Positions 41,496 through 44,250 of a stretch of DNA of 64,000 nucleotides are shown piece by piece (within the stretch, counting starts at the first letter, position 1; each line of letters begins with the position of its first letter). Source of the DNA: Halohasta litchfieldiae (GTDB taxonomy: Archaea; Halobacteriota; Halobacteria; Halobacteriales; Haloferacaceae); the NCBI RefSeq assembly GCF_002788215.1, contig NZ_CP024845.1, positions 1,984,001 through 2,048,000 of the forward strand, in the 5' to 3' direction. Below the pieces are notes generated by a model that worked only from the letters and a program-made list of their open reading frames with translations, searched no databases and had not been told where the DNA came from. Both the position numbers and the translations under genes were made by a program.

Positions 41496-41969
41496 TTAGT
41501 CGGCGGCTACTTGCTCGTCGGGAACCACTGATTCGACTTGGTCGACAATCGTTGCTGTGTTGTCCTCGATCTGTGCTTGGGCGTCGAGGAAGCTGTCGAA
41601 GGAGTCGTCGACAGTCTCACTGTAGCTATCGCTCATCGCTTCGAGTTCCTCGATACCTTCGATGACTGCATCCCAGTTTTGTTCATACCCATCTTCGAGC
41701 GCGTCGATACCCTCGTCGACGATCTCGTGGAACCCTGTGAGGTCGGCCTCGGGAGTGGCCTGCTCGATAGCATCGACATAGGCATGGAGGGTGGTACGTT
41801 TCAGCTCGTTGCCGTGTGTCTGCAGCTGTTTGCCAGTTTCGAGCGCGTCAGCGAACTGTTGGACCGCAGTTCGCTGGAGTTTGATGGATTCGAAGACAGC
41901 CGTTTGCGTCTGTTCGAAGGCGGTTCGCTGGTAGCCAAACATCGCTGTAAGCGGGTTTGAGGTACTCAT
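41496..41969 (-). CDS. All-helical coiled-coil protein, phasin-like
   Basis: 157 acidic residues, predicted helical throughout. The opening NPLTAMFGYQRTAFEQTQTAVFESI and the regular Gln/Glu spacing resemble haloarchaeal PHA-granule phasins (PhaP), but no phaC or phaE gene is nearby, so this is a guess. No signal or membrane helix is seen. A TATA-like AAATTTATACA and an 8-base-arm inverted repeat lie upstream, with a leader of some tens of bases. Confidence 0.5.
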   Translation of the reverse strand: MSTSNPLTAMFGYQRTAFEQTQTAVFESIKLQRTAVQQFADALETGKQLQTHGNELKRTTLHAYVDAIEQATPEADLTGFHEIVDEGIDALEDGYEQNWDAVIEGIEELEAMSDSYSETVDDSFDSFLDAQAQIEDNTATIVDQVESVVPDEQVAAD

Positions 41970-42074: not shown

Positions 42075-42187
42075 CTGTATGGTTGTAGATGGTATAGCAT
42101 GTCAGCTTGGTTCAGTCGATGATCGTCGACCATGTAGTAGTAGCCGTTGTCGACCAACCAGACGCTGTCTCCCTGACACTTATTGTG

Positions 42188-42219
42188 TCGTAAACATAAT
42201 GTGTGTATGTGGTTTACGA
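42188..42219 (+). promoter_or_regulatory. BirA-type biotin operator across the bioB start
   Basis: TCGTAAAC (42188-42195) and GTTTACGA (42212-42219) are perfect 8-base inverted arms separated by 16 bases. Written as nonamers with a 14-base spacer, this is the layout of the bacterial BirA operator (TTGTAAACC-N14/15-GGTTTACAA), and all central bases GTAAAC/GTTTAC agree. The site covers the likely transcription start and the bioB start codon. Confidence 0.75.
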
Positions 42220-43279
42220 GACAGGAAACCGGACGATAGACGACGCTGTGTGTCGGGTTCTCGACGGCGACCACCTCGACCGAACCGACGCGATTGCACT
42301 TTTAGCCCAGCCGGTCGACGACCTCGCCGCGGCGGCCGATTCGGTTCGGGCAACGCTCGGTGACGACACCGTCGACGCTTGTAGCATCGTCAACGCAAAA
42401 GCTGGCAACTGCGCCGAGGACTGTGGCTTCTGTGCCCAGTCGGCCCATTTCGATACCGGGATCGATACGCACGACTTGCTGGACCCTGAGAAGATCCTGG
42501 ACGCCGCTAAACGCGCCGAACGCGACGGAGCCCAGCGGTTCGGCATTGTCGTCGCCGAGAAAGGAGTGAGTAAGGAAAAACGGCCCGACGAGTGGGCCAA
42601 CGTACTTCGTGCGGTCCGACTCATCCGCGACGAGACGAGCGTCGAGGTCGACGCCAGTCTTGGCCTCCTCACGGAGGAAGAAGCCGAGATTCTCGCGGAC
42701 GAGGGGCTCAACCACTACAACCACAACATCGAGACCTCACCGCGCTACTTCTCGGAGATCGTCTCTACCCACACCTTTGAGGACCGACTCAAAACGCTCC
42801 GCCGAGCCAAGAACGCCGGGATGGATCTCTGTGCGGGCGTCATCCTCGGGATGGGCGAGACGCCAGCCGACCGCGTCGACGCCGCCCTCGAACTCAGAAA
42901 GATCGGCGTCTCCTCTCTCCCGATCAACATCCTCAACCCGGTCGACGGAACCCCGCTCGGCCATCGTGAGACGGCCGCGATTTCGACCACCGATCTCATC
43001 AAGACGATTGCGGTGTACCGACTGCTCCATCCCACTGCTCGCGTGCGGATCACCGGCGGTCGGGAGGTCAACCTCGCCGAAGATCAACAACAACTCCCCT
43101 TTGAGGCGGGTGCCGACGGGATTCTGACCGGCGACTATCTCACGACAGAGGGTCAGTCGGCGGGAACTGATATCGAAGTCATCGAGCAGGCTGGCCTCCG
43201 GCCGAACATGGACGCAAACGAGTTCGATCCCGAGGCCGTCAAAGCCCGTCAGTCGACGCCTGAATCGAGCGACGACTGA
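42209..43279 (+). CDS. bioB: Biotin synthase (radical SAM)
   Basis: 356 residues from the GTG at 42209 (MVYETGN opening); a GTG six bases earlier is possible. The radical-SAM cluster motif is C-A-E-D-C-G-F-C near residues 68-75, followed by YNHNIETSPRYF, the AGMDLCAGVILGMGET segment and RITGGREVN with the conserved Arg. It converts dethiobiotin to biotin. No other bio gene is adjacent. A TATA-like ACTTATT about 25-30 bases upstream supports a leaderless start within the operator. Confidence 0.95.
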   Translation: MVYETGNRTIDDAVCRVLDGDHLDRTDAIALLAQPVDDLAAAADSVRATLGDDTVDACSIVNAKAGNCAEDCGFCAQSAHFDTGIDTHDLLDPEKILDAAKRAERDGAQRFGIVVAEKGVSKEKRPDEWANVLRAVRLIRDETSVEVDASLGLLTEEEAEILADEGLNHYNHNIETSPRYFSEIVSTHTFEDRLKTLRRAKNAGMDLCAGVILGMGETPADRVDAALELRKIGVSSLPINILNPVDGTPLGHRETAAISTTDLIKTIAVYRLLHPTARVRITGGREVNLAEDQQQLPFEAGADGILTGDYLTTEGQSAGTDIEVIEQAGLRPNMDANEFDPEAVKARQSTPESSDD

Positions 43280-43316: not shown

Positions 43317-43748
43317 CTACTCTCGACTGCCAGCGAGCCACTTCTGGCTGAAATTAACGCCACAGGAACAGTGTGCGTAGGCGTGAATTACGTCTCCCTC
43401 CTCGTAGAGACCGCCTACCTCCTCGTTTTGAGCCTCCGCAAACGACAGGACGAACTCGATATTGTGAGTCTCGCCGTCTTCGTCGTCGGGACAGACCCCG
43501 CCAGCGAGCGTCGACTCGATGTCGCCGTCACGGCCCATCGCCTCCTTGGCGAACTCCATCGCCCCGATGCCGGTCGCCTGTTGGAACGCGTTGCGACCCG
43601 CCTCGCCGGGGATGACCAGCACAATTCCGGAGTCGACGGTTTTGCCCGCCTCACCGAGGTTGTGATCGTCTCCGAGTTGACTATCGTCGATGTAGATCGC
43701 TACGTCTTCGAGCCGCTCGCCCGCGAGAAATTCATCCAGTGTCTCCAT
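43317..43748 (-). CDS. DUF5807-like haloarchaeal protein
   Basis: 143 residues. It begins METLDEFLAGERLEDVAIYIDD, has a VLVIPGEAGRNAFQQATGIGAMEFAKEA middle (read in parts) and ends with two close Cys in AYAHCSCGVNFSQKW. I recall the haloarchaeal DUF5807 family with this pattern. The Cys/His pair could bind metal. No catalytic function is known to me. It is convergent with bioB. Confidence 0.7.
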   Translation of the reverse strand: METLDEFLAGERLEDVAIYIDDSQLGDDHNLGEAGKTVDSGIVLVIPGEAGRNAFQQATGIGAMEFAKEAMGRDGDIESTLAGGVCPDDEDGETHNIEFVLSFAEAQNEEVGGLYEEGDVIHAYAHCSCGVNFSQKWLAGSRE

Positions 43749-43812
43749 ACCCGCTCTCCGGTCGCCATCCGTATATGGACTCTCACTTCGGACGACGCTG
43801 TGCGATGTGTCG

Positions 43813-44250
43813 TTACTCGTCGTCGAGTTGGTCGGCAATCGAAGATAGCGAAGAGCGTGGTCCTTGTTTGACGGTATACACTTCCCTGTCTCCGGGCGCG
43901 CGGAGGCCGTACTGTTCGCCCTCTACCACGGTATCGAACTCGACGCTGTTGCCCGATTCACGACCCAACTCGCGGAGCCACTCCGCGAGTCGGTTGTCGC
44001 CCTCGCCGGTCGACCGAGCCAGCCGTTTGTTGTCGTACGCGCCGCGAACCAGTAGTCCGCGCGTATCCGCGGCAACTTCGGCGTGATTCTCGGTCCCGTC
44101 GAAGACGAGTCTGATCGAATCGCCAGCCGAAAGCTGCTCGCTCACGGAGTCGGGAAGTCGGATGCCCTGTCGACGCGCACTGCCGAGCCGGACGAGTTCG
44201 GCGCGGTCGGTGTCGACGGTATCACTGTCGCTGGGTAGGCGGTTGCTCAT
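43813..44250 (-). CDS. Haloarchaeal protein of unknown function (DUF7112-like)
   Basis: 145 residues. The opening region (RAELVRLGSARRQGIRLPDSV) looks like a swapped-hairpin AbrB or SpoVT-like strand set, followed by acidic and Arg-rich segments. The name DUF7112 is from memory and unverified. It precedes DUF5807 and follows rps6e on the same strand, perhaps in one transcription unit. Function unknown. Confidence 0.55.
   Translation of the reverse strand: MSNRLPSDSDTVDTDRAELVRLGSARRQGIRLPDSVSEQLSAGDSIRLVFDGTENHAEVAADTRGLLVRGAYDNKRLARSTGEGDNRLAEWLRELGRESGNSVEFDTVVEGEQYGLRAPGDREVYTVKQGPRSSLSSIADQLDDE

Follow-up and report, generated by a model that had tools for sequence, protein, structure and literature searches.

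A palindrome that resembles the operators of the bacterial biotin repressor BirA lies across the start of bioB, the biotin synthase gene, of the haloarchaeon Halohasta litchfieldiae. BirA operators were reportedly proposed in archaea already by Rodionov, Mironov and Gelfand in 2002. In the window, the whole 64,000-nt stretch of DNA analysed here, the palindrome TCGTAAAC-N16-GTTTACGA was found at 42188-42219 with both arms exact, and the full site reads TCGTAAAC ATAATGTGTGTATGTG GTTTACGA. The features of the locus are listed below.

42172..42183, + strand: likely core promoter of bioB, from the sequence, columns conserved among relatives and haloarchaeal motifs
42188..42219: candidate palindromic operator TCGTAAAC-N16-GTTTACGA, about -21 to +11 from the start codon; arms exact, site in 75/75 bioB genes of the order
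42188..42195, + strand: left arm TCGTAAAC, upstream of bioB; core GTAAAC at 42190-42195, -19 to -14
42209..42211, + strand: bioB start codon GTG, placed by comparison (the open reading frame list has GTG 42203)
42212..42219, + strand: right arm GTTTACGA, equal to bioB codons 2-3 (GTT TAC) plus the first bases of codon 4 (GAG)
42209..43279, + strand: bioB, biotin synthase, a stand-alone gene; TIGR00433 above cut-off, radical SAM and BATS domains

The palindrome and the start of bioB

At up to three mismatches, 42188-42219 was the sole match to the site in the window; shuffled windows gave a mean of 0.13 matches at this threshold, with at least one match in 11 of 100 shuffles. As calculated from the base composition of the window, 0.0002 exact copies of the 16-base site are expected per 3.33 Mb, and for GTAAAC-N16-GTTTAC the expectation of 0.06 per 3.33 Mb compares with two exact copies in the genome. 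When up to two mismatches were allowed, 46 places were found in the genome against 37 for the reversed control, and since these counts are so close, weight was put on the exact sites and on conservation. The published BirA consensus, as given in an excerpt of PMC545781, is TTGTAAACC-N14/15-GGTTTACAA, in which N14 equals GTAAAC-N16-GTTTAC. The bioB palindrome agrees with this excerpted consensus in arms and spacing, as the first-pass annotation had claimed: the cores GTAAAC-N16-GTTTAC are exact, while the outer bases are TC/GA where the consensus has TT/AA, and the inner bases are A in the left arm and G in the right.

The gene was identified as bioB by TIGR00433 (351.7 bits, cut-off 225), and its nearest relatives among the matches listed are haloarchaeal, for instance from Halonotius and Halohasta. 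The position of GTG 42209 is a possible start in all of 81 compared bioB genes, and in 52 of them it is the only ATG, GTG or TTG after the last in-frame stop. Comparison with the relatives thus puts the first codon of bioB at 42209 (GTG), adjoining the right arm, rather than at GTG 42203. The earlier claim that the site covers the GTG start codon holds for either start, and only the position of the start was refined, from 42203 to 42209. The start codon is GTG in 72 of the 81 genes and ATG in nine. GTG thus appears unusually common in haloarchaeal bioB when set against the 6% reported for GUG among leaderless transcripts of H. volcanii in PMC4983044.

Upstream of the start, a BRE-like C at 42172 (-37) and A at 42176 (-33) precede a TATA-like TTAT at 42180-42183 (-29 to -26); TTWT and CGAAA are given as haloarchaeal promoter motifs in an excerpt of PMC4983044. 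Measured from the start codon, the 81 genes have the TATA element at -30 to -26 and the left arm core at -19 to -14. The position of the TATA element indicates that the bioB transcript is probably leaderless, and the palindrome should cover the initiation region of this predicted transcript. With respect to the neighbours, the next open frame upstream (157 aa, window 41496-41969, minus strand) gave no Pfam match, and downstream, on the strand opposite to bioB, the frames at 43317-43838 (-) and 43813-44250 (-) match DUF5807 and DUF7112.

Conservation and coding overlap in the order

Conservation was examined in two sets of bioB genes, which overlap and have genomes in common. Set 1 consisted of the window and 80 named loci, chosen as the best of 150 and fetched with peptide seeds of which one was N-terminal, all codons being allowed. 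Set 2 was free of seeds and comprised all 73 above-cut-off bioB genes of 195 genomes of the order together with two fragments (75 in all). In scoring the sites, either A or C was allowed at the variable position of the left arm, and either T or G at that of the right arm. In all 75 genes of set 2, the best site stands in frame directly after ATG or GTG, as codons 2-3, so that the overlap with the start codon, seen earlier for a single gene, proved to be fixed throughout the bioB genes examined in the order, with the right arm coding. The score was 12 of 12 in 65 genes, 11 in eight and 10 in two, and the arms were spaced by 16 in 72 genes and by 15 in three. Right arms were GTTTAC (66), GTTGAC (7), GTTCAC (1) and GTTAAC (1). 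The commonest left arm was GTCAAC (43/75) although the commonest right arm was GTTTAC, in contrast to bioY, as if the coding right arm at bioB were held at Tyr.

In set 1, codon 2 is GTT in 81/81 genes, whereas these genes have GTT at 143 of their 2379 other Val codons. GTT is also low at codons 5-31 (15 of 208 Val codons), so a general bias near the start does not account for GTT at codon 2. Codon 3 is TAC in 79 genes, CAC in one and GAC in one, codon 4 is GAG in 69/81, and a left arm GT[CAT]AAC is present in most of the 81 relatives. Three genomes of families f9 and f11, with an otherwise different BioB N-terminus, keep MVD or MVN, and in f17 codon 3 is GAC in 3/4 and CAC in G031, a broken copy. 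As an outgroup, bioB at E 1e-60 was found outside the order in only 3 of 246 genomes of the phylum. Among these three, no in-frame site follows the start codon; one (L379) carries an exact palindrome with spacing 15 that ends 8 nt before the likely start, and the other two (L375, L376) carry degenerate palindromes.

BirA, bioY and other candidate targets

Profile search of the genome with PF03099 gave two proteins, one a relative of lipoate ligase and the other a biotin ligase of 315 aa, for which PF08279 (HTH_11), PF03099 and PF02237 are all above cut-off. The N-terminal HTH, ligase and C-terminal domains of this protein make up the Group II (bifunctional) layout. It aligns over residues 9-295 to 1bia, the E. 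coli BirA. Residues 14-299 align to 6apw, named bifunctional ligase/repressor BirA. The repressor-domain model TIGR00122 gave E 2.8e-11 and 43.2 bits, below its cut-off of 70, and the HTH also matches PF25213 (HVO_A0261_N) below cut-off. The search for a BirA with an N-terminal winged helix, proposed as a check on the first-pass annotation, thus gave a full-length ligase with HTH_11 above cut-off.

Among the genomes of the order, a BirA match was found in 183/195, and all matches listed begin at query residue 1-4. The 12 genomes lacking BirA also lack bioY, an above-cut-off bioB and any GTHAAC-N16-GTTKACGA site; five of them are 58-78% complete. Absence of the site is associated with absence of BirA (Fisher p 9e-9, relatedness ignored). 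As the BirA-less genomes lack the targets too and some are incomplete, this association does not isolate the regulator, and the co-occurrence fits a BirA regulon without separating loss of the regulator from loss of its targets.

The Halohasta bioB stands alone, as had been suggested: no bioF match was detected by profile search of the genome, and the best matches for bioD (42.2 bits, cut-off 83.3) and bioA (231.2 bits, cut-off 405) are below cut-off. An above-cut-off bioD is present in 61 of the 73 bioB genomes and missing in 12, of which two carry a partial bioD, leaving 10 with Halohasta included. Bacteria of the sea that have bioB only use desthiobiotin, according to an excerpt of PMC9561691. 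By analogy, because bioB occurs here without bioF, bioA and bioD, the Halohasta BioB probably uses imported desthiobiotin.

The only other exact GTAAAC-N16-GTTTAC in the 3.33-Mb genome ends 14 nt before the ATG of bioY (PF02632, 116.3 bits, cut-off 25); the next gene encodes an ECF-type ATPase, matched by its equivalog models below cut-off. The search for further sites in the genome, also proposed at the outset, thus yielded one, at a second biotin gene, and the reading that was to fall if the ligase had no DNA-binding domain and no other bio gene carried the site has been left standing by the HTH and the bioY site. When 30 bioY genes were fetched by family, 18 carried the full site, seven a one-mismatch site at -42 to -44 with left arm GGAAAC, and five no acceptable site there, so that the fair rate is 25/30. 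These five are L132, L139, L143, L144 and L124: L144 has nothing at the usual place and L124 has a partial site near an uncertain start. In L132, L139 and L143, all of family f6, only a direct-type pair GTMAAC-N16-GTAAAC was observed, at -65. A larger set of 70 bioY genes, with alignments not beginning at residue 1 excluded and identical upstream sequences counted once, gave scores of at least 11 in 69/70, a rate that is biased because the set was mostly pattern-fetched. In the same biased set, 58 of these 69 genes have a left arm starting at -43 or -42, and the arms are GTCAAC/GTTGAC in 32, GTAAAC/GTTTAC in 23, GGAAAC/GTTTAC in seven and others in seven. As a rule, the bioY palindrome has its first base 42-44 nt ahead of the start codon and lies over TATA-like sequence; its spacer contains BRE- and TATA-like sequence, for example CCGAAG-TTTTGAT.

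Some variants of the site are shared by the two genes. The f17 bioY sites seen are GTTGAC, in parallel with GAC at codon 3 of f17 bioB, and genus g25 shows a spacing of 15 at each of them (bioB in G057; bioY in G014, G029 and G050). That two separate genes share such shifts points to recognition of both by a single protein. Recognition helices of BirA were compared in two sets of sequences, L146-L175 and L335-L365; in one set, two of 31 stretches (G073, G020) were without the helix motif. All 13 f17 BirA proteins seen, 10 in one set and 3 in the other, read SRNAVWK, most others having SRAA, and the coincidence of SRNA with GTTGAC operators in f17 is suggestive of a change in specificity. A one-to-one match between helix and arm was rejected, as bioY likewise carries GTTGAC in f5 and f12 genomes whose BirA has SRAA; within f14, with the same arms, G014 has SRNA and G029 and G050 have SRAA, and G095 of f12 has SRTA.

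Exact GTAAAC-N16-GTTTAC was found in 55 of the 195 genomes of the order (reversed control, 4), and GTHAAC-N16-GTTKACGA in 149 (reversed control, 11). Among 59 loci returned for these two patterns and checked, 56 are at bioB or bioY. The remaining three lie inside an open frame (L007), near an unidentified gene (L018) and before a biotin carboxylase gene (L204). Palindromes were also observed before the biotin carboxylase gene in G066, G084 and G149 (L330, L331, L332), and in G196 and G200 (score 12) and G205 (score 11), the latter three genomes being from a set of 30 family genomes that includes G084; L305, L310 and L322 are loci of this kind. Only 4 of these 30 score at least 11 at this gene; that score is reached by 158 of 4000 random windows from the loci studied, though the true sites there inflate this rate. 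In G066, G084 and G149, birA is located downstream of the carboxylase gene on the same strand; since a frame on the opposite strand intervenes in G084 and G149, the two genes are not called one operon. At the biotin carboxylase gene of Halohasta no operator was detected (best 9/12). In three genomes of one genus (G059, G172, G103; L216, L333, L334), a GTCAAC-N16-GTTTAC site was observed just before a gene of 300 aa with a below-cut-off match to the small chain of ribonucleotide reductase.

Proposed regulation and its meaning

Several explanations of the palindrome other than a BirA operator were weighed against these data. Chance might be invoked from the count of near matches, which barely exceeds its control in the genome, yet an exact site is expected only 0.0002 times per genome and the bioB genes of the order carry the site at one fixed place in 75/75; a chance origin, refuted by the comparative data, was rejected and is given practically no weight. 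The start of bioB could instead be kept for the protein, with the peptide MVYE needed and the palindrome its by-product, as VYE stands in most of the 81 sequences. This reading was likewise rejected as very improbable: codon 2 is GTT in every gene, though GTT makes up 6% of Val codons in them, the non-coding left arm is conserved as well, in some lineages residue 3 is D, N or H with the arm still near the motif, and the bioY palindrome is outside coding sequence. An element acting in mRNA or translation, as a signal close to the 5' end of a leaderless transcript, would agree with a right arm that falls in the first 12 nt of the predicted mRNA. The left arm is conserved, however, though it would be untranscribed if the message is leaderless, and the whole bioY palindrome is upstream of the start codon; an RNA element was rejected on these grounds and is held to be just as improbable as the peptide.

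Haloarchaea possess many winged-helix regulators. A transcription factor other than BirA might thus bind the palindrome at the biotin genes, the more so as the HTH of BirA matches PF25213 below cut-off and binding by BirA is itself predicted from sequence. Against this stand the agreement of arms and spacing with the BirA consensus (excerpt of PMC545781), the position of 56 of the 59 checked loci at biotin genes, and the co-occurrence of the sites with a BirA that carries an HTH; we regard another factor as unlikely, with a small chance of being correct. With considerable confidence, we propose that the palindrome is the operator of the bifunctional BirA of this genome and that its right half is protein code at bioB, the binding, co-repressor, repression, transcript start and substrate all being inferred.

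When biotin is plentiful, BirA with biotinyl-AMP would dimerise and bind both arms. At bioB it would span about -21 to +11, a stretch that follows TATA and includes the predicted transcript start and the first codons, and it should block recruitment of RNA polymerase or early initiation. At bioY it would lie over about -44 to -13, straddling the BRE/TATA-like sequence, and should block TBP/TFB. The location of the site downstream of TATA at bioB and over TATA at bioY thus predicts blocks at different steps. When biotin is scarce, BirA would pass biotin to the carrier protein and leave the DNA, and both bioB and bioY would be switched on; BioY would import biotin or perhaps a precursor, and BioB would convert imported desthiobiotin to biotin. 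Since the bioB message probably has no leader, the reading frame would take in the right arm, which would dictate codons 2-3. We lean, with some reserve, towards the wider reading that Halobacteriales keeping bioB hold a BirA operator in code, that the DNA preference of the repressor has set N-terminal residues of an enzyme throughout the order, and that a single palindrome acts in two ways, against TBP/TFB at bioY and against initiation at bioB.

The arrangement may be compared with known systems. Bacterial BirA operators share the arms GTAAAC/GTTTAC, the core spacing of 16, the targets bioB and bioY and a regulator that joins HTH and ligase; the Halobacteriales site differs in its location in an archaeal core promoter, with the right arm as in-frame code of a probably leaderless bioB (75/75). 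Among archaeal repressors, Phr and MDR1, for example, act by binding over the transcript start, where they block RNA polymerase. Their operators, like the haloarchaeal bioB site, are downstream of TATA and over the start site, but these repressors belong to other protein families, and the bioB site also extends into codons. The marine bacteria with bioB only likewise have bioB without bioF, bioA and bioD (excerpt of PMC9561691), whereas Halohasta is an archaeon with a BirA-type site on bioB and a predicted use of desthiobiotin.

An excerpt of PMC3199775 names a Halobacterium BirA and states that BirA has been put forward as the oldest transcription factor known. A BioYMN transporter was noted for Natrialba in passages of PMC3403918 that contain no statement on regulation, and biotin ligase together with BioY is given for nine of ten haloarchaea in an excerpt of PMC3102087. 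Among the matches listed from the open-licence literature there was no experimental paper on haloarchaeal BirA regulation, and neither a haloarchaeal BirA operator nor an operator inside bioB codons. Within the literature searched, the order-wide coding overlap of a BirA site at bioB appears to be new. Under this overlap, a synonymous change of codon 2 from GTT to GTC should weaken repression and leave the protein unchanged. One operator at two promoter positions can reveal which step of archaeal initiation is blocked by a repressor of bacterial type, and the bioB site illustrates a way in which regulatory DNA can be driven into coding sequence when a gene has no leader.
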